Below the pieces are notes generated by a model, which had not been told where the DNA came from, searched no databases, and worked only from the letters and a program-made list of their open reading frames with translations. Of a DNA stretch of 64,000 bases, positions 320 to 50,661 are shown piece by piece; position 1 is the stretch's first letter, and each line of letters starts with the position of its first letter. The translations under genes and the position numbers were made by a program. Where the stretch lies: the NCBI RefSeq assembly GCF_002356295.1, contig NZ_AP018042.1, positions 1,892,361-1,956,360 on the forward strand. Direction: 5' to 3'. This stretch comes from Labilibaculum antarcticum. GTDB taxonomy: Bacteria > Bacteroidota > Bacteroidia > Bacteroidales > Marinifilaceae.

Positions 320-2194
320 ATGAAAATATTTACTACTCTGGTTCTTCTGGCAGCCTTACTCTCAGTAGCCTTTTCTCAAGAAGTTCCATCGGTTTACAGC
401 AATATTGGTTCCGACGAAAAGGGAGTGTTCCTACAAATAGAAAACAAAAATATTTATGCAGCAGAAGCTAATGATCAGTTTCTATTTAAGGATTTATATA
501 CCGCAGCCATTGGTACTCGAGTAGGTTTAAGTTTCAATTTTAAATTCCCTGAGCTTACCGGAACTTTGTACTATGGATTTATTAATTACCAGGATGGCAG
601 CTATCCTCAGCCGGTCTATTTTCGGGAAAGTTCTCCTATTAAAGTTGGCATTACCAGTATCCCAATTAAAAGCTATCTATCGGGCAAATACGACATGATT
701 GCTTGGGAGAAAACCGGAAAAGGAATTTTGGGCTATAGAATTGTTAGTGATCAGGGAAGTATTTTATACGATGGGAAAGTGGCCTTCACCTACAAAGATA
801 ATTTGTTTAAAGCGGAGCCTACGGTAATTGAAGGTCCGTTTATTAACAAACTAACTCCCAAAGGAGCCACCATTTCGTTCACCACATCTAGTGCGGTAGC
901 GGCAAGTATTCGTATTCAGAACAATATCTATAAAGACAATAAACCAGTAGAAAATCATGAAATTAAAATTGATGATTTAAAAGCCAATACTCAATACCGA
1001 TACACCTTACTGGTAAATGATTTTGAATATGAGTTTGGTTTCGAAACGGCACCTGAACCAGGTAGTCGCAAAGCTTTTACATTTGCCTATGGAAGTGATT
1101 CCAGGGCCGGAAATGGCGGAGGCGAACGCGATGTTTTCGGCACCAATGCTTATATCATGAAGAAAATTGCCGCTCTGGCAAAATCCGAAAAGGCAAAATT
1201 TGTACAGTTTACAGGCGATTTAATTAATGGATACGATACCAGCCGTGAGCGAATGAATTTACAATATGCCAACTGGAAACACGCTGTTGAACCTTTCTGG
1301 CATCACATTCCTTTTGTTGTTGGTTTTGGAAATCATGAGGCCTACAACTATGTTTTTAACGATTCCGTAACTGGAAATTCGTACCTCATCGATCACTTTC
1401 CTTTTGAGGACAGCTCGGGAGAATCTCTTTTTCAGGATAACTTTGTTTTGCCTGAAAACGGTCCGCGAAGCGAGGATAAGTCTGCCTACGATCCAAATCC
1501 AGACCAAATTGATTTTCCATCCTACAAAGAATCTGTTTATTGGTATTCCTACGGCAATGTTGCTGTGGTGGCATTGAATTCTGATTATTTCTATTCGCCA
1601 AGCGGATTAAATATTACCAGCGGCAACCTGCATGCCTTCATTATGGATAATCAACTGAAATGGCTGCAGAAAATAGTAAAACAACTGGAAAAAAATAAGA
1701 ATATCGATCATGTTTTTCTGACCATTCACACCCCGTTTTTTCCCAATGGCGGCCACGTTGCAGATGATATGTGGTACAATGGAGATAACAGATGGCGGGC
1801 GGTCGTTAATGGTACTACCTACCAAAAGGGAATTATTGAAAGAAGAGACGAATTATTGGATTTGATTGTGAACAAAAGCAAAAAAACAGTGGCCATTTTA
1901 AGCGGCGATGAGCACAATTACAACCTGCTTACCATCAATAATGAAATGAAGCGTTATCCTGACAACTACCCTCACCAAAAATTGGAACTATCAAGAACCT
2001 TTTATCAAATAAACAATGGAGCGGCAGGTGCACCTTACTACGCCCAGGAAAAAACACCTTGGTCGGCCAATGTAAGAAATTTTTCGACTCAAAATGCTTT
2101 GGTTTTATTTGATGTTGATGGAGCTAAAATTCATGTTCGTGTGAAAAATCCGGATACTCTTGAGCTGATTGATGAATACACTCTTCGGGAATAA
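320..2194 (+). CDS. Secreted purple-acid-phosphatase-like metallophosphoesterase
   Basis: Predicted exported phosphoesterase of 624 residues. Residues 1-19 form a signal peptide ending before Gln20. A fibronectin-III-like segment (about 165-245) precedes a calcineurin-type metallophosphoesterase domain (about 253-560). Visible metal-site motifs are GSDSR (Asp260), TGDL (Asp300), GNHE (338-340), a TIHTPFF motif and GDEHNYN near 530. The first motif has Arg where many family members carry His (DxH), a variant also known in DSRG-type phosphatases. The layout of N-terminal beta-sandwich plus catalytic domain is that of purple acid phosphatases. The start is the first ATG after an A-rich leader. 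The next gene begins 43 bases downstream on the same strand. Substrate is unknown; phosphate scavenging from organic esters is a reasonable guess only. Confidence 0.85.
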   Translation: MKIFTTLVLLAALLSVAFSQEVPSVYSNIGSDEKGVFLQIENKNIYAAEANDQFLFKDLYTAAIGTRVGLSFNFKFPELTGTLYYGFINYQDGSYPQPVYFRESSPIKVGITSIPIKSYLSGKYDMIAWEKTGKGILGYRIVSDQGSILYDGKVAFTYKDNLFKAEPTVIEGPFINKLTPKGATISFTTSSAVAASIRIQNNIYKDNKPVENHEIKIDDLKANTQYRYTLLVNDFEYEFGFETAPEPGSRKAFTFAYGSDSRAGNGGGERDVFGTNAYIMKKIAALAKSEKAKFVQFTGDLINGYDTSRERMNLQYANWKHAVEPFWHHIPFVVGFGNHEAYNYVFNDSVTGNSYLIDHFPFEDSSGESLFQDNFVLPENGPRSEDKSAYDPNPDQIDFPSYKESVYWYSYGNVAVVALNSDYFYSPSGLNITSGNLHAFIMDNQLKWLQKIVKQLEKNKNIDHVFLTIHTPFFPNGGHVADDMWYNGDNRWRAVVNGTTYQKGIIERRDELLDLIVNKSKKTVAILSGDEHNYNLLTINNEMKRYPDNYPHQKLELSRTFYQINNGAAGAPYYAQEKTPWSANVRNFSTQNALVLFDVDGAKIHVRVKNPDTLELIDEYTLRE

Positions 2195-2237
2195 ATCCCA
2201 TTGCACAATGTCTTTTTAACCGCAGAATACTAATAAA

Positions 2238-3332
2238 ATGCGATTCTCTATTTTATGCTTCCTTGCAATTTTTATTGGCACGATAAGCGCAGGGCAAATA
2301 AAAGATTCTATTCCATCTCTCTCCTGCAATGAATATACATTGTTCGAAAGTGATGAGCTTCTTGAAATTTGCCTGAAAGGCGATATTCGCAAATTATTTA
2401 AAGACAGAGGTGATAATGCGGTGTATCATCCTTTTCAATTTACATTTGGCATCGAAGGGATTTCACAATCGGTAGATATCAGAGTAAAAACCCGTGGGAA
2501 CTTTCGTAAATTAAGGGAAAATTGCAGAATTCCTCCTCTTCTTCTCAATTTTGATAGCCTCCCCAATTCAGGGGGAAAACTATTCTACCAACAAAATAAA
2601 CTAAAACTGGTAACCGCCTGCCAAAATGAAAAATATGTATTGCGTGAATACCTGGCTTATAAAATCTACCAGCTAGTTAGCGAGAAAAGTTTCTGCGTAA
2701 GATTGGTTACAATTTGTTTTGAGGATAGCGAAAAAGGAAAAACAACCGATCCCAAGTATGGAATTCTGTTGGAAGATCAGAATTGCATGGCTGAACGCAA
2801 TCAATCCCGATTGGTTAAACGACTTAATCTCAATCCTAAGAAAACAGATCGCGAAATGTTTTTAAAAATGGCAGTCTTTCAATTTTTAATCGGAAATACC
2901 GATTGGTCCATCCAATATCTGCACAACATCAAGTTAATTAGTGGTGTGCAGAACGCCGCACTTATTCCTGTTCCCTACGATTTCGATCATTCGGGTATTG
3001 TAGATACACCTTATGCTTTACCTGCCGAGGAGTTGCAAATGCGTTCGGTTCGACAAAGAAGATATCGTGGCTATTGTCTTCGAAACATGGAGGATTTTGA
3101 ATCTACTTTTGCCGTTTTCAAGGATGCTAAAGAAGACATTTACAACTTATACAAGAACAGCCATCTGCTAGAAGAAGACTACATAAAAAGCACGCTAAAA
3201 TATTTAGATGAATTTTACGATATCATTTCTGATAAAAAAAAGAGCAAAAGAGCATTTCAATACCCTTGTAACAAATACGGAACCGGCAATGTAGTTATTA
3301 AGGGAATAAATAAAATAAAACCTAATAAATAG
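2238..3332 (+). CDS. Secreted CotH-like kinase-fold protein
   Basis: A 364-residue protein with a probable signal peptide (1-19). It resembles the CotH-type atypical protein kinase fold. There is an RxxxRGNFRK motif at 82-91 like the CotH VRGNS region and a lysine-rich KLKL segment at 121-124. GNTDWSIQYLHN at 219-230 supplies a possible catalytic Asp222 with His229-Asn230, and PYDFD at 246-250 supplies a DFD-like metal-binding element. These are motif-level similarities read by eye. If real, the protein would be an exported phosphotransferase; CotH of Bacillus phosphorylates spore-coat proteins, while bacterial non-spore homologues are mostly uncharacterised. It follows the metallophosphoesterase closely and may be co-transcribed with it, giving a kinase/phosphatase pairing outside the cytoplasm. 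The alternative is an uncharacterised Bacteroidota exported protein. Confidence 0.6.
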   Translation: MRFSILCFLAIFIGTISAGQIKDSIPSLSCNEYTLFESDELLEICLKGDIRKLFKDRGDNAVYHPFQFTFGIEGISQSVDIRVKTRGNFRKLRENCRIPPLLLNFDSLPNSGGKLFYQQNKLKLVTACQNEKYVLREYLAYKIYQLVSEKSFCVRLVTICFEDSEKGKTTDPKYGILLEDQNCMAERNQSRLVKRLNLNPKKTDREMFLKMAVFQFLIGNTDWSIQYLHNIKLISGVQNAALIPVPYDFDHSGIVDTPYALPAEELQMRSVRQRRYRGYCLRNMEDFESTFAVFKDAKEDIYNLYKNSHLLEEDYIKSTLKYLDEFYDIISDKKKSKRAFQYPCNKYGTGNVVIKGINKIKPNK

Positions 3333-3490
3333 AATTGATAAAAATATTAATTCGCCTCTCACACTTCCTTATTATCCTTGTGATTCCCGTATTTTTTAGC
3401 TAAAATTGTGATACCCCCAACATTTTGCCAAACTCTGTAGAATGGAAATTCGTATACTGAATTTCTGTTTGCAACACTTTAATTAGCGGA

Positions 3491-6400
3491 ATGATAATCA
3501 AAACTTTACATACCTCACTACTATTTATCTTCCTTTTTGCAGGAATCAACTTTCTGAATGCTCAACAGTTTCGACACATTAATGTGGAACAAGGTTTAAG
3601 CAGTAGGCAAACGGTAAATGTATTGCAGGACAAAAAAGAATTTATTTGGATCTCGACAAGGACAGGTGTCGACCGCTTCGATGGAAAAACCATAAAAAAC
3701 TATACGCTTCCAATTACCCCACGTGATAATGCGCCTGAAAATTTCTATTTAAAGCTGGATAAAGACTCATTAATTTGGGCCTATAGCGACATCGGACAGA
3801 TTTATCGATTCAATTATCAGAACGACCAATTCGAAGTATTTTATAATTTTCACCGCAACAAGTATCATTCCGAGTTGTGGATCAACGCTTCCTGCTTCGA
3901 TTCTCAAAATACTTTTTGGGTAGGAACAGATAATGGTCTTTTCTTTTTAAAAAATAAAAAGCTCGAGCAATTCTCAAAATATCCTTTAAAACAGGCCTTT
4001 ATTACTTCGCTTTACAGCATTAGTAAGGATAGTTTACTATGCTCTACTTTCGACAAAATTTTCCTGTACAATACGGAGCAAAATGTAATGCAGGATCTGG
4101 ACATCAATTTGGGTGACAACCAAAGAATAAACAGCTTATACTTCAACAATCAAACGAAAACAATATGGATCGGAACTTTTTCCGATGGTGTTTACTGCTA
4201 CCATATGGATAGCAAAGAGATTGTGGATCTGAAAAAGATCAACCCCAACTTTCCTAAAGTTCCCATTCGAAAATTTGAATTGCTAAATGCAGACGAAATA
4301 TTGATTGGTTCCGATGGAATGGGTGTTTATCTGGTCGATCAGAAAAGCCACAAGATAAAGGAAGTTTATCAGGAAGATGAAGATACTCAGTTCACACTGA
4401 ACGGCAATGGTGTATACGATATTTACAAAGACAAAGAGAATCGAATATGGATTTGCACCTATACCGGAGGTATAAACATTCTTGATCCTTCGGCTTTAAA
4501 TTTTAAAATTATCAGTCATCAAATTAACAATGAACAATCGCTTGGCAACAGCATTGTGAACAGTGTGATTGAAGACCGAAAGGGAAATCTATGGTTTGGA
4601 ACCAACAACGGAGTAAGCTTGTTGGAAAAAAGAAATAAGAAGTGGCAACACTTTTTTAAGAGTTCGAGTAATCAAACCAACGTGTTTTTGGACCTTTGCG
4701 AAGATGCAGATGGTAACATTTGGGCTGGTTCCTATTCAATAGGGGCTTATGTCATTAGTCCCGATTTCAAAATCAGTAAGCATTACACTCACGATACCGA
4801 CGATAATCAATCTCTTGGTACAAATTATATTTTCGAGATTACTTTAGACTCCGATAAGAATATTTGGATTGGCGGACGGGATGGAAAACTTTGTCAGTTC
4901 AATTACGAAACAAAATCTTTTATACAATACAACAAACTGAATATTAATTCGATTGAAGAAATCAACAAGCAAGAATTATGCATTGGTGGCACTCAGGGAC
5001 TTTACGTATTCGACAAAAACACGAACCTGCTCAATCTAATTTCCCGACGGTATAAAATCTACAGTGTTTATCCGGACAAAACGGAATATATATACTACGG
5101 AACACGAGGTTCTGGGTTTTTCCGATACAGCAGAAATACCAAAGAATCGAAAGGTTTTACGGTCGACAATGGATTGCCTTCAAATCAAATTTATTCTATC
5201 ATTCCTGATGGGAAGTACTTGTGGCTCAGTACCGAGAATGGAATCTCCCGTTTTGACACCAAGAATGAAAGTTTCAAAAATTTTTCGACGGAAGACGGTC
5301 TTTCAGATAAAACCTTTAATCAATCTGCAGGATTCAAAAGTAAATCAGGCGAAATTCTTTTTGGATCCTATCATGGGGTGACCCGATTTTATCCTTCAGA
5401 TATCAGAACACACGAGAAAAAAGCCAGTATCTATCTCGAAGAATTTGGCTTGTTCAACAAAGTAGTTTTTCCAAACGAGGAAGGTTCTCCTCTAATAAAA
5501 TCGATAAACAACACAAAAAAAATGGAGTTAAAACATTACCAACACTCCTTTTTTATTGCCTACACATCCATCAGTTTTTTTAATTCTGATGAAATAAAAT
5601 ACACCTGGAAGCTGAACGGACTGGATGAAAACTGGAGTTCCCCCTCTTTCGGAAAATCAATAAACTACACGAACCTATCACCAGGAGATTATACGCTTCA
5701 CTTAAAAGCTTTGAATTACTCTACCGACGATGTTTTGGATGAGAAAATTATTGAGATTACTGTACAACCTCCTTTCTATAATACAATTTGGGCAAAATTA
5801 CTGTATGTCCTTTTAGTGATCTTACTTGCTCGCTGGATCTTTATTTATTTGCAAATTCGAATTAAAAAGAAAAATTCCGAAGATAAAATCAATTTCTTCA
5901 CCAATACGGCACACGATATCAGAACTCCGCTAACGCTTGTTAGTGCACCGCTTAATGAGCTAAAAATGGAAAAAGGTTTGTCGGAAAAAGGAAAATATTA
6001 CCTTAATTTATCGGTAAACAACCTCGACAAGCTAAACGCTCTGGTATGTCAGTTACTCGACTTTCAAAAATCAGACTTGGATAAAAGTCAGTTGGTTTTG
6101 AGCAAAGTGGAAATGGTTGATTTACTGAACCGAAAGGTATTGAACTTTAAAACCCTTGCCGAACGAAAAAATATTGCTCTAAGTTTTTATTCTGACACAA
6201 AAAAACTGGAAGAATGGATCGATAGCTCAAAAATGGATAAGGTAATTGAAAACCTTCTTTCCAACGCAATAAAATATACACCCAACAACGGAACAATACA
6301 GGTTTCGCTTCTCGCGGATAAAAAAACATGGTCGATTGCAGTAAAAGACTCGGGTATTGGGATTTCGAAAAAGGCACAACGGAATTTATTTCAAGAATAT

Positions 6401-48554: not shown

Positions 48555-48779
48555 CAATAAAATTTCTCTTGAAAAGACTTCCTAAACTGTTTTTTGACAC
48601 TCCTTGTTCGTGTAATAATAAAATCACGGATTAAATTTTATCATTTCTTCTAACACACTTCACCTTTACGATTCAAAACTCGAAGCTTGGAATACAATTA
48701 GATAGAAGCCAATCATGGATTGTCCCGCTTCCACTTCTCATTAAAAAAATGCTTTTTTGAAAAAAATTCTTGTAAGATG
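48555..48779. other. Non-coding stretch between kbl and tRNA-Asn cluster
   Basis: Apart from promoter elements at each end, I see no gene, strong hairpin or repeat in this interval. Confidence 0.5.
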
Positions 48780-48810
48780 TTGTATTATTGAACAAATCCT
48801 ATTAGTTTTG
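48780..48810 (+). promoter_or_regulatory. Promoter of the tRNA-Asn cluster
   Basis: TTG (48780-48782), a 20-base spacer and TAGTTTTG (48803-48810, perfect TAnnTTTG) lie 64 bases upstream of the first tRNA gene. Confidence 0.65.
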
Positions 48811-48874
48811 CATCGCAATTTTCATCCAGAATGTACGTCAATCGTACCACACAGAAGAAAATTAAGAGTAACAT

Positions 48875-48948
48875 TCCTTCTTAGCTCAGTTGGTTAGAGC
48901 ATCTGACTGTTAATCAGAGGGTCCTTGGTTCGAGTCCAAGAGAGGGAG
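48875..48948 (+). tRNA. tRNA-Asn(GTT), copy 1
   Basis: A 74-base cloverleaf: acceptor TCCTTCT with AGAGGGA (one G-T pair), D arm GCTC/GAGC, anticodon stem TCTGA/TCAGA with loop CTGTTAA (anticodon GTT), T arm CTTGG/CCAAG with loop TTCGAGT, discriminator G followed by CA rather than a full CCA. Differs from copies 2 and 3 by one base in the D loop (CAGTTGG versus CAGCTGG). Confidence 0.97.
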
Positions 48949-48994
48949 CAACAAAAAGCAGCCTAATTGCTTTCAAAATAATTTAGGACAGCAT

Positions 48995-49068
48995 TCCTTC
49001 TTAGCTCAGCTGGTTAGAGCATCTGACTGTTAATCAGAGGGTCCTTGGTTCGAGTCCAAGAGAGGGAG
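48995..49068 (+). tRNA. tRNA-Asn(GTT), copy 2
   Basis: Same 74-base tRNA, starting 120 bases after copy 1. The spacer (AGCAGCCTAATTGCTTTC type, then AATAATTTAGGACAGCAT) is repeated between copies 2 and 3, showing tandem duplication of the whole unit. Confidence 0.97.
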
Positions 49069-49113
49069 CAACAAAAGCAGCCTATTTGCTTTCAAAATAA
49101 TTTAGGACAGCAT

Positions 49114-49187
49114 TCCTTCTTAGCTCAGCTGGTTAGAGCATCTGACTGTTAATCAGAGGGTCCTTGGTTCGAGTCCAAGAGAGGGAG
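49114..49187 (+). tRNA. tRNA-Asn(GTT), copy 3
   Basis: Third 74-base copy, starting 119 bases after copy 2 and identical to it in the tRNA part. It is directly followed by an intrinsic terminator and then by the fragmentary tRNA-Asn/GIY-YIG repeat units. Confidence 0.97.
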
Positions 49188-49191
49188 CTAA

Positions 49192-49218
49192 AAGCCATTC
49201 ATTGCGGATGGCTTTTTT
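49192..49218 (+). terminator. Terminator of the tRNA-Asn cluster
   Basis: AAAGCCAT and ATGGCTTT form a stem around TCATTGCGG-type loop bases followed by seven T residues. The same hairpin recurs at 49382-49410 and, degraded, at 49824-49853, each time right after a tRNA-Asn 3' end. Confidence 0.88.
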
Positions 49219-49301
49219 TGTGCACTGAATTTTTCTTTCATACAATATTGACTTACAGGTTCAAAACGGTTCACGAATCACTCCCCTAATTTAGATACTT
49301 A

Positions 49302-49379
49302 TGATCTTCTAAATACAATAAATACTGACTGTTAATCAGTCCCGACGAGTCGGGATGGCTCGAGTCCAAGAGAGGGAGC
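49302..49379 (+). pseudogene. Chimeric tRNA-Asn 3' fragment, unit 1
   Basis: The bases CTGACTGTTAATCAG (anticodon arm) and CGAGTCCAAGAGAGGGAG (T arm and acceptor 3' strand) match the intact tRNA-Asn genes. The 5' acceptor strand and D arm are replaced by the segment TGATCTTCTAAATACAATA, and the variable region is replaced by a palindrome TCCCGACGAGTCGGGA (49340-49355). It cannot fold as a tRNA. The same chimera recurs at 49743-49822 on the other side of the GIY-YIG gene. Confidence 0.85.
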
Positions 49380-49381
49380 TG

Positions 49382-49410
49382 AAAGCCATCCATTGCGGAT
49401 GGCTTTTTTT
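49382..49410 (+). terminator. Second copy of the tRNA-Asn terminator
   Basis: GAAAGCCATCC / GGATGGCTTTTTTT hairpin with T run, copied together with the tRNA 3' fragment; it precedes the GIY-YIG gene by 65 bases. Confidence 0.85.
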
Positions 49411-49474
49411 GTGCACTGAATTTTTCTTTTCTGCAAAAAAACTTCCAGTTCCAATATTTCCCTAATTTAGATAT

Positions 49475-49735
49475 ATGTTTTTCATATATATTTTATACTC
49501 TCCATCATCAGACAAATACTATATAGGATATACTGAAGATGTTTCTAAACGAATTTTCATGCACAATAATCCAATACGATCTAGCTACACTTCAAAACAC
49601 AGACCCTGGATTCTCAAAAGAGCATTTAAAGTTAGCGACAAAAAAACGCTTACTTTAAAAGTGGAACGGAAAATAAAGAAAATGAAAAGTCGAAAATATC
49701 TGGAACAATTATTGGATCCTCTAAAAGGCGAATAA
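49475..49735 (+). CDS. Small GIY-YIG nuclease-domain protein
   Basis: An 86-residue single-domain protein of the GIY-YIG family (YhbQ/UPF0213-like). FFIYILYSPSSDKYYIGYT contains the two Tyr strands (YIL...YIG), Arg27 region DVSKRIFMHN supplies the catalytic Arg, and KVERKIKKMKSRKYLEQLL includes the metal-binding Glu. All expected residues are there, so it may be active DNA nuclease. Directly repeated tRNA-Asn-derived segments flank it on both sides. A sequence like the -7 box (TAATTTAG, one mismatch) ends just before its ATG. The combination resembles a homing-type passenger gene. Confidence 0.85.
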   Translation: MFFIYILYSPSSDKYYIGYTEDVSKRIFMHNNPIRSSYTSKHRPWILKRAFKVSDKKTLTLKVERKIKKMKSRKYLEQLLDPLKGE

Positions 49736-49742
49736 ACCTTTT

Positions 49743-49822
49743 GTGATCTTCTAAATACAATAAATATTGACTGTTAATCAGTCCCGACGAATAAGGATTG
49801 GTTCAAGCCCAAGAGAGGGAGC
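49743..49822 (+). pseudogene. Chimeric tRNA-Asn 3' fragment, unit 2
   Basis: Repeats the fragment at 49302-49379: GTGATCTTCTAAATACAATA, then TTGACTGTTAATCAG, then TCCCGACGA (the palindrome is truncated, followed by ATAAGGAT), then GGTTCAAGCCCAAGAGAGGGAG. It carries several substitutions relative to the intact tRNA. A decayed copy of the terminator follows at 49824-49853. Confidence 0.8.
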
Positions 49823-49886
49823 TAAAAGCCATCCATTGCGGAAGTCTTTTTTTATTGTAAAGCCCCTCCTATCCAAAATTTTCTTC

Positions 49887-49894
49887 TATTTTTG
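49887..49894 (+). promoter_or_regulatory. Promoter -7 box of the PAP2 gene
   Basis: TATTTTTG, a perfect TAnnTTTG match, 24 bases upstream of the GTG start; the leader would be very short. Confidence 0.55.
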
Positions 49895-49917
49895 TTGCAA
49901 TTGAAAAATTATAAGCC

Positions 49918-50661
49918 GTGAAACACTACTCAATATCTTTATTTCTTTATCTAATCGCATTTCTGATTATCCCTATTTCTGGATATTCTCAGGTTAAAAT
50001 CGACACAACTGCCACATTTCAAAAGGAAAGACTAAACCCCGGCTTAGGAAAAAAAGTTTTTACTAAAGAAAATCTTCTGGTGTTTGGTGGATTATTAGGA
50101 ACTTCTTTTCTACTCGACGAATGGTCGAACAAGCGCTTAAAATTAAATCAAAATTCCTTTTTGGATTCCTACACCAATATATTTAATGAATTTGGTGAGA
50201 AAAAATACATTGCCCCCGCCACCTTCGCAGCCTGGGTGATCGGCACAGCCATTAAGGATGAAAGACTGTCAACGACTGCACTCAACTCAGGTAAAGCTCT
50301 AATCACTGCCGCAATCTTAACTGAAGGCACAAAAATCATAGCTGGTCGTTCACGGCCCGACATGAATAGAGGAAATATGCATTTTGATGCCTTTGGTGGT
50401 AAAAACAACGATACAAAATCATTCCCTTCAGGTCATGCTTTTGTATCATGGGCAGTATTTACTCCCTTCGCCGAAGAATACAGCAAATGGATATACGTTA
50501 TTCCAGCATCCGTGAGCTTTGCCCGAATGTATAAAAACCGACATTGGTTTTCTGATGTTGTTTTAGGAGGAGGAATTGGCTATTTTGCAGGTCTTTATTT
50601 TCACAAAAGAAAAAACCAATCTGTCATTTTCGATGGAAACGGAATCATCATAAAATTTTAA
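49918..50661 (+). CDS. PAP2-family membrane phosphatase
   Basis: A 247-residue protein starting with GTG and carrying a signal peptide or first helix (about 6-24). The phosphatase signature is complete: KIIAGRSRPD (motif 1, Lys-X6-Arg-Pro), PSGHAF (motif 2) and ARMYKNRHWFSDVV (motif 3, Arg-X5-His-X3-Asp). Such enzymes remove phosphate from lipids such as undecaprenyl pyrophosphate or phosphatidylglycerol phosphate at the membrane. The POT-like transporter gene follows 30 bases later and may be co-transcribed. Confidence 0.9.
   Translation: MKHYSISLFLYLIAFLIIPISGYSQVKIDTTATFQKERLNPGLGKKVFTKENLLVFGGLLGTSFLLDEWSNKRLKLNQNSFLDSYTNIFNEFGEKKYIAPATFAAWVIGTAIKDERLSTTALNSGKALITAAILTEGTKIIAGRSRPDMNRGNMHFDAFGGKNNDTKSFPSGHAFVSWAVFTPFAEEYSKWIYVIPASVSFARMYKNRHWFSDVVLGGGIGYFAGLYFHKRKNQSVIFDGNGIIIKF

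Follow-up and report, generated by a model that had tools for sequence, protein, structure and literature searches.

The stretch of the Labilibaculum antarcticum genome analysed here (64,000 nucleotides; contig NZ_AP018042.1, positions 1,892,361 to 1,956,360 of the forward strand), referred to as the window throughout this paper, carries behind a row of tRNA-Asn genes a short gene for a GIY-YIG nuclease, embedded in tandem units that contain pieces of the tRNA. Such units, each composed of a small Slx1/UPF0213-type GIY-YIG gene on the tRNA strand and a partial tRNA copy, are linked to tRNA genes in other Bacteroidota as well. They exchange the 3' end of the tRNA, are patchily present, decay and form arrays; their nuclease gene is under selection, and its lineages are linked to tRNA isotypes. 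We consider it fairly probable that these units form a phylum-wide family of selfish, tRNA-targeting elements of the homing type, in which the nuclease would be the driver of mobility.

Three tandem tRNA-Asn(GTT) genes, predicted by ARAGORN and Rfam, span 48875-49188 of the window (48875-48949, 48995-49069 and 49114-49188, on the plus strand like all features below), and the 3' end of the third, intact gene abuts two units that stand in register, one with and one without a GIY-YIG gene. The order within a unit is a terminator hairpin, a leader ending in CCCTAATTTAGATA, either four bases or the open reading frame (ORF) with a short tail, TGATCTTCTAAATACAATAAATA, an anticodon-arm copy, a palindrome, the T arm with the acceptor 3' strand, and again a terminator. 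In the ORF-less unit, a terminator-like hairpin with a T run (49190-49221; inverted repeat I1) and CCCTAATTTAGATA (49284-49297) are followed by a remnant of the nuclease C-terminal coding end (49302-49324), the anticodon-arm copy (49325-49339, by comparison with 49114-49188), the perfect palindrome TCCCGACGAGTCGGGA, which replaces the variable loop and the 5' strand of the T stem (49340-49355), and the tRNA-Asn 3' fragment (49356-49380; repeat D2). The second unit contains a terminator-like hairpin (49382-49407; inverted repeats I1 and I2), CCCTAATTTAGATA directly 5' of the ORF (49460-49473), the ORF of 86 amino acids (49475-49735), its in-frame continuation to a TAA in the anticodon-arm copy (49736-49777; coding in relatives), the anticodon-arm copy itself (49767-49781; repeat D3), a decayed palindrome (49782-49797; repeat D3, 91% to the first unit) and a second tRNA-Asn 3' fragment (49799-49823; repeat D2), which, by comparison with unit-free sites, is probably derived from the displaced native 3' end of the tRNA. 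A third terminator-like hairpin (49824-49852) leads into the flank that congeners have behind their unit-free site. Direct repeats of 81 nt begin at 49165, 49356 and 49799 (the latter two 93% and 72% identical to the first), and others of 58 nt at 49299 and 49741 (91%). CCCTAATTTAGATA, repeated at 49284 and 49460, has no other exact occurrence in the 5.72-Mb genome, where one additional match differs by a single mismatch, and the match of the fragment 49299-49380 is confined to the window locus. An ORF scan of the window units revealed no frame longer than 45 amino acids besides the nuclease, and no integrase gene among frames above that length.

An earlier note on the window had described tRNA-Asn 3'-fragment units with and without a nuclease gene, and this is confirmed by the in-register repeats and by the match to the Pfam GIY-YIG model (PF01541). 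The palindrome that the note assigned to both units is perfect in the first and decayed in the second. The note also placed the ORF exactly between two shared segments; CCCTAATTTAGATA does precede the ORF, but TGATCTTCTAAATACAATAAATA is itself the end of the nuclease reading frame. Beyond the ORF stop, the window frame reads TFCDLLNTINIDC up to the TAA in the anticodon-arm copy, and the stop lies 14 codons earlier than in relatives: the ORFs of six related genomes (G001, G004, G007, G008, G012 and G017) run to the same TAA and end in ...DC, as in SDLLKTISIDC and GDLLISSTPDC. Because the ORF-less unit retains the coding end DLLNTINTDC*, it is most simply read as a deletion derivative that lost the gene body and not as a pre-insertion site, and the view of the two adjacent units as pre- and post-insertion versions of one element is not supported.

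Of the note's reading, a small mobile unit associated with tRNA genes, the tRNA association and the variation in presence are well supported by unit-free syntenic sites in congeners, by occupation of a second tRNA gene (tRNA-Phe) and by 60 of 69 loci of the survey described below; with unit-free sites and other tRNA loci at hand, the arrangement is not fixed at one locus, a state in which the note had held mobility unlikely. Alleles were compared by searching 12 genomes with each tRNA (G000 is the window genome); the tRNA-Asn counts leave out G005, and the tRNA-Phe counts leave out G001, G005 and G014. The tRNA-Asn beside a gene that we take for kbl is accompanied by the nuclease in G000, G001, G004, G007, G008, G012 and G017, the first five of which are marked as the same genus. 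Empty tRNA-Asn sites, for which the note had proposed to look in related genomes, exist in G002, G003 and G006, with both flanking genes present and neither nuclease nor remnant; the site of G014, of which only the kbl flank was seen, is also without nuclease. Of the eight genomes of the genus resolved at tRNA-Asn, five have a filled site.

The window genome has four PF01541 matches, namely the window ORF, a frame of 600 amino acids (UvrC-sized) and two matches 564 bp apart. At its second site (L007 and L008; G000:C1:2768499-2769760), a tRNA-Phe is followed by two filled units upstream of a gene presumed, from its sequence, to be gpmI. Between these units lie a further incomplete copy of the tRNA and a terminator of a second type, and the tRNA-Phe fragments carry GCCCCGAAAGCTTTCGGGGC or a near copy of it in the T loop. 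The nuclease was found at this tRNA-Phe in G000 (two units) and G006 (one unit), and neither nuclease nor remnant in G002, G004, G007, G008 and G012; among seven genomes of the genus, the site is filled in two, empty in four and occupied by a nuclease-less remnant in one. Present and absent alleles at one syntenic site, a mark of homing endonucleases, were thus found at both tRNA-Phe and tRNA-Asn.

Comparison of single alleles revealed how filled and unit-free sites differ at the tRNA. At tRNA-Phe, the filled allele of G006 is 518 bp longer than the unit-free allele of G004, with about 19 bp of the tRNA 3' end repeated: the left match reaches 5 bases beyond the tRNA 3' end, the right match begins 14 bases before it, and both flank matches are about 96.5% identical. 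The intact tRNA-Phe of G006 is followed by a GAGAG-type terminator, whereas all five unit-free sites have a GATC-type terminator, and in G006 this native GATC-type terminator with its flank stands 3' of the palindrome-bearing fragment. Therefore, the 3' end of the intact tRNA-Phe in G006 is not the native one, which has been displaced. The tRNA-Asn alleles of G002 (unit-free) and G004 (filled, 434 to 443 bp longer) agree in that the native flank, 92% identical, lies 3' of the fragment. As far as such alignments can tell, the allele differences fit an insertion with exchange of the tRNA 3' end.

For the survey, a profile of 12 tRNA-linked proteins (A1) was run on 296 Bacteroidota genomes, at least 156 of which contain a match at E 1e-12 or better. 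The loci analysed were 68 match clusters taken in rank order to E 1.3e-22 plus the long array L188, which was chosen for its length; no locus was chosen by tRNA context. Among these 69 loci, 60 adjoin a same-strand tRNA, which lies within 500 bp upstream in 58 (median distance between tRNA end and profile match, 53.5 bp) and directly downstream in two; five lie within 500 bp of a contig edge, and none of the 69 has an opposite-strand tRNA within 500 bp. The remaining four (L168, L185, L188 and L192) have no tRNA gene within 500 bp, and tRNA-like pieces and palindromes were seen in them by eye; the piece in L188 resembles a tRNA-Phe about 1.5 kb upstream on the same strand. Since seven genomes contain 34 to 84 tRNAs each, we estimate that a random gene would have such a tRNA neighbour in under half a percent of cases. 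A control of 18 GIY-YIG loci away from tRNAs had been picked after the result was seen and, being circular, was not used. Two or more nuclease matches are present in 27 of the 69 loci (five in L157 and a maximum of seven in L188), and in the arrays inspected the units repeat at a spacing of 315 to about 625 bp. Sixteen tRNA species are represented among the rows of the nuclease tree described below.

The spare tRNA part was examined in the 58 loci with an upstream tRNA, a fragment being defined as colinear exact matches of at least 16 bases that the region near or behind the end of the ORF shares with this tRNA. A fragment is present in 53 of the 58, with a palindrome inside it in 45; when tRNAs of other isotypes served as the query, 37 of 750 comparisons reached the threshold; tRNAs share sequence. 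The corresponding numbers for 17 loci of close relatives are 11 and 10. In 14 of the 53 fragment-bearing loci, the ORF stop codon lies inside an exact tRNA match of at least nine bases. Usually of the TCCCG...CGGGA type, the palindrome lies in the anticodon arm, the T arm or the variable loop. Across 55 loci and 19 host-family codes, 63 palindromes were counted, of which 42 contain TCCCG and 58 contain TCCG or CCCG. One palindrome listing misses some cases with a short match chain (L059 and L075), and its entry for L177 is doubtful. In L058 the whole anticodon arm is replaced, GAGCAT[CTGACTGTTAATCAG]AGGGTC becoming GAGCAT[CCCGATGTATATCGGG]AGGGTC; in most tRNA-Asp cases eight T-arm bases are replaced (CGAGTTCG), and in the tRNA-Asn of Labilibaculum the variable loop is replaced. 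A mirror form, in which a 5' tRNA part with palindrome is followed by the ORF and the intact tRNA, was found in L054 (Arg), L199 (Ser) and L209 (Val), and it is tandemly repeated in the first two.

The nuclease tree comprises 82 rows (two loci were dropped) and is poorly resolved because only 84 columns were available. Nevertheless, tRNA isotype requires 26 changes on it against 50.0 in shuffled data, palindrome position 19 against 29.8 and host family 34 against 55.2, with none of 300 shuffles as low in any of the three. In 27 of 55 cases, a nuclease has the same isotype as its closest relative from another host family, whereas shuffling gave 8.6 on average and 17 at most. Nuclease kinship tracks tRNA isotype across host families. 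Enzyme relatedness that follows the target is another mark of homing endonucleases; the signal weakens when each combination of isotype and family is reduced to a single row.

The window protein matches PF01541 at E 8e-13 over profile positions 1-77 of 78, which places it in the GIY-YIG superfamily. Residues Y5, Y16, R26, H30 and E64, which we take to be the GIY-YIG catalytic residues, are invariant in 12 of 12 rows of each of two alignments. An AlphaFold model predicts a single GIY-YIG domain (predicted local distance difference test score, pLDDT, 85.1), and GIY-YIG entries rank first in a fold search with it. The nearest PDB entries by sequence are UPF0213 (1zg2, E 9.7e-12) and SLX1 entries (E 8.2e-5 to 0.018), with I-TevI far behind (E 0.4); the fold search gives the same order, UPF0213 and SLX1 first, with all matches weak (best E 2.1e-3). 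Among the relatives compared, most intact tRNA-linked ORFs have 78 to 104 amino acids. The ratio of nonsynonymous to synonymous substitution rates (dN/dS) is 0.08-0.28 in nine of ten pairs and undefined owing to saturation in one, indicating purifying selection. The nearest named records are from Labilibaculum manganireducens (88%), a metagenome-assembled genome (MAG) of Marinifilaceae, Labilibaculum MAGs and Marinifilum caeruleilacunae; more distant ones, near 50%, are from Flavihumibacter soli and a Draconibacterium MAG.

Based on these results, a cycle can be proposed. In an element-free cell, the nuclease would cut or nick a tRNA gene of a particular isotype. The unit would then be inserted as the break is repaired from a copy that bears the element; the alleles display the end state of this step, its direction and mechanism being our proposal. 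The incoming DNA would thereby rebuild the tRNA 3' end and terminator, and the native 3' part and terminator would come to lie downstream of the ORF, the tRNA-derived end plausibly serving as the repair or homology tract. The palindrome, which is seen to replace or interrupt the anticodon arm, variable loop or T arm of the spare copy, would most likely prevent this copy from being a target or from mimicking a tRNA; such a role as site destroyer is at least as likely as that of a recognition site. Continued cutting at the intact tRNA, together with recombination at the repeats, would give rise to the tandem arrays observed.

Several points weigh against such selfish homing. The profile used in the survey derives from tRNA-linked proteins, so that the 60 of 69 holds for their protein clade; when close relatives were searched with the general PF01541 model, a same-strand tRNA lay within 700 bp upstream of only 17 of 39 analysed short GIY-YIG loci. 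Five of the 58 loci have no clear fragment (none in L170 and L173, and below the threshold in L205, L206 and L223). Isotype is partly confounded with host lineage, and with one row per isotype and family the shared-isotype count is 11 of 31 (expected 4.0). At tRNA-Phe, G003 has a palindrome-bearing tRNA-Phe piece and no nuclease (L114), and G017 only the start of the nuclease frame (L118); both sites look like those of former occupants. Gain and loss are not separated by the alleles, since a clean site could also be restored if the tRNA recombined with its downstream fragment. With a gene that stops 14 codons short and a decayed second palindrome, the window copy may be inactive. That the nuclease cleaves the tRNA gene is something we infer. 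Furthermore, the intact tRNA is full-length in element-bearing cells, so a site lying wholly inside it should stay cuttable, and the palindrome core is too constant for mere site destruction; the survival of the intact tRNA and the constancy of the core are left unexplained by homing.

Precedents for the separate parts of this cycle have been described. SegB is a free-standing GIY-YIG homing endonuclease of T-even phages which cuts inside tRNA genes, is catalytically required for tandem tRNA-segB amplification in phage T6, and has the motif RAWTSGAAC at 23 of 83 sites (PMC13096335). In our own reading, this motif would be the reverse complement of the T-loop sequence. Like the tRNA-linked family, SegB is encoded beside tRNA genes and occurs in tandem arrays of tRNA and nuclease (PMC13096335); unlike phage-borne SegB, the present units are chromosomal and isotype-linked and have a palindrome in the partial tRNA copy, and their nuclease is nearer UPF0213/SLX1 by sequence. 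No phage record was found at E 1e-5 for the window protein, so a phage origin was rejected and membership in the SegB sequence family is not indicated, no direct SegB alignment having been made; a weak PHROG homing-endonuclease match (E 0.0095) was noted. The mobile ORFs (mORFs) of fungal mitochondria, known from hybrids of atp6, atp9, cox2 and nad3, are elements that rebuild the 3' end of their target, bring in a nuclease ORF and leave the displaced native 3' end downstream (PMC3630166). This architecture, the only feature compared, is also that of the G006 tRNA-Phe and the G004 tRNA-Asn against unit-free congeners; fungal mORFs target mitochondrial protein genes, whereas the present targets are bacterial tRNA genes, with arrays and with a palindrome in the displaced part. 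SegB may thus be regarded as the functional and fungal mORFs as the architectural precedent.

Other systems resemble the units in part. The UPF0213/SLX1 branch provides the best sequence and fold matches of the window protein, but the present family differs from SLX1 in having a single short domain and being tied to tRNA genes; 78-104 amino acids are too few to hold the additional domain of SLX1. Large mobile elements commonly insert at tRNA genes, and tyrosine-integrase elements at tRNA genes rebuild the 3' end and leave a partial copy at the far end. The present units share tRNA insertion, rebuilt 3' end and partial far-end copy with these elements, but differ from them in having no integrase, adding about 430-520 bp (at two sites), carrying a palindrome and showing 5'-side forms. 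REP/RAYT elements and integron cassettes likewise combine a short gene with a palindromic sequence and form tandem arrays, but their enzyme families are different, and the present arrays repeat one gene. Dispersal of the REP/RAYT kind was not seen, the exact palindrome occurring once in G000 (no RAYT gene search was made). No description of tRNA-linked GIY-YIG units in Bacteroidota was recognised in the partly available literature, which does not cover most subscription papers and bioRxiv preprints; the three mentions of tRNA found in a GIY-YIG phylogenomics paper do not concern such units (PMC1564403). By our classification, a homing-type nuclease with 3'-end exchange is known, and the target, host, arrays and palindrome are new.

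Three other explanations were weighed. In the first, which we regard as unlikely, mobility would depend on hairpins, with the palindrome as the functional end of the unit: an Slx1-like nuclease would recognise a hairpin or cruciform formed by the palindrome and tRNA arms and move the unit via a branched or single-stranded intermediate. The closest solved relatives of the enzyme are indeed UPF0213 and SLX1 rather than I-TevI, the palindrome sits where tRNA arms fold, 58 of its 63 instances share a TCCG or CCCG core, its position follows the branching of the nuclease tree (19 changes, 29.8 when shuffled), and some GIY-YIG genes away from tRNAs lie among palindromes. However, the palindrome is regular at only one unit end, none was recognised in 13 of the 58 survey loci, and RNA folding of the two window fragments was no better than that of shuffles (z 0.02 and -0.74). 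The specific version, equally unlikely, in which a structure-directed Slx1-type nuclease recognises DNA hairpins of the TCCCG...CGGGA palindrome and of tRNA arms and inserts a one-gene element by hairpin exchange while rebuilding the tRNA, would make the palindrome the active element end and the units some of the smallest autonomous tRNA-dwelling mobile elements.

Passive spread appears quite improbable to us. The nuclease would then be a passenger of DNA uptake and RecA recombination at the conserved tRNA 3' end, or of an integrase acting in trans on such ends, and units would be amplified, and lost again, by ordinary unequal crossing-over. The repeats do offer ample homology, remnants show loss, and tRNA 3'-end exchange is also left by tRNA-specific integrases. 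On the other hand, the window units hold no other ORF above 45 amino acids, purifying selection acts on the nuclease gene, which recurs at many isotypes, a 3'-end integrase would not produce the 5'-side forms seen at Arg, Ser and Val, and nuclease kinship tracks isotype. Very improbable is a domesticated function, in which the nuclease would serve the host, for instance by amplifying tRNA genes when defences or toxins that cut tRNAs attack them, a service that SegB renders to phage T6. Such a role has a precedent in SegB (PMC13096335), and tandem arrays do hold extra tRNA-like copies, some of full length, but most of these are partial or palindrome-bearing, and presence is patchy within one genus.

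If selfish homing is the correct account, a nuclease about 80-105 residues long seems to inhabit tRNA genes phylum-wide, with neither integrase nor intron. This would account for many of the short GIY-YIG genes of Bacteroidota, would provide a cellular counterpart of phage SegB, and would supply natural isotype-linked nucleases for studying how one-domain GIY-YIG enzymes choose their targets. A palindrome that takes the place of anticodon arms in register raises the question of whether it destroys a site or is an active end.

Two further origins of unit parts were rejected. An Rfam scan of 48700-50000 up to E 1, in which only the three tRNAs reach the gathering score, argued against a group I intron. 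The leader was not accepted as a copy of the host flank: the G004 leader scored 36 against the unit-free flank of G002 (shuffles of the G004 flank at most 30), it tied the best shuffle (30) against its own flank and against the G006 site, and the window leaders were unconvincing (16 and 15).

The palindrome was also considered as a dispersed repeat, and this was rejected because the exact window sequence lies only at tRNA-Asn in G000, G004 and G007. The pattern TCCCGANNNNTCGGGA occurs at 10 places in G000 with differing loops, and only one of them, at tRNA-Asn, is the exact palindrome. Fourteen other TCCCGA hairpins that were inspected have different loops and, by eye, no adjoining tRNA piece. 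Hairpins of the TCCCGANNNNTCGGGA type with varied loops number 7 to 27 per genome in six of eight genomes, tRNA sites included, and the reversed pattern was found 0 times.

Some individual loci deserve mention. In L065 (G004, 2072-2284), two full-length tRNA-Asn copies, in which the palindrome forms a long variable arm, stand in a tandem row and still fold as cloverleaves in ARAGORN. In L056 (G025, 1831-3572), tRNA-Val bodies precede, separate and follow two nuclease genes, and in several of these bodies TTCCGTCTTAAAACGGAA takes the place of the anticodon arm. Cut-off starts of a further nuclease copy were seen by eye behind the last tRNA fragment of L166, L172 and L225, as if arrays decayed from the far end. 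In Candidatus Kaiserbacteria (L237, 2424-2837), a GIY-YIG gene begins a few bases from a tRNA-Arg and ends just before a tRNA-Val, with no fragment or palindrome recognised by eye; the tRNA association may thus reach beyond Bacteroidota. Finally, the short GIY-YIG genes of L039, L040, L043, L044 and L047 are not directly beside tRNAs and lie among palindromes or repeats, with TCCCGATCCCGAGAATCGGGA present four times around L043.

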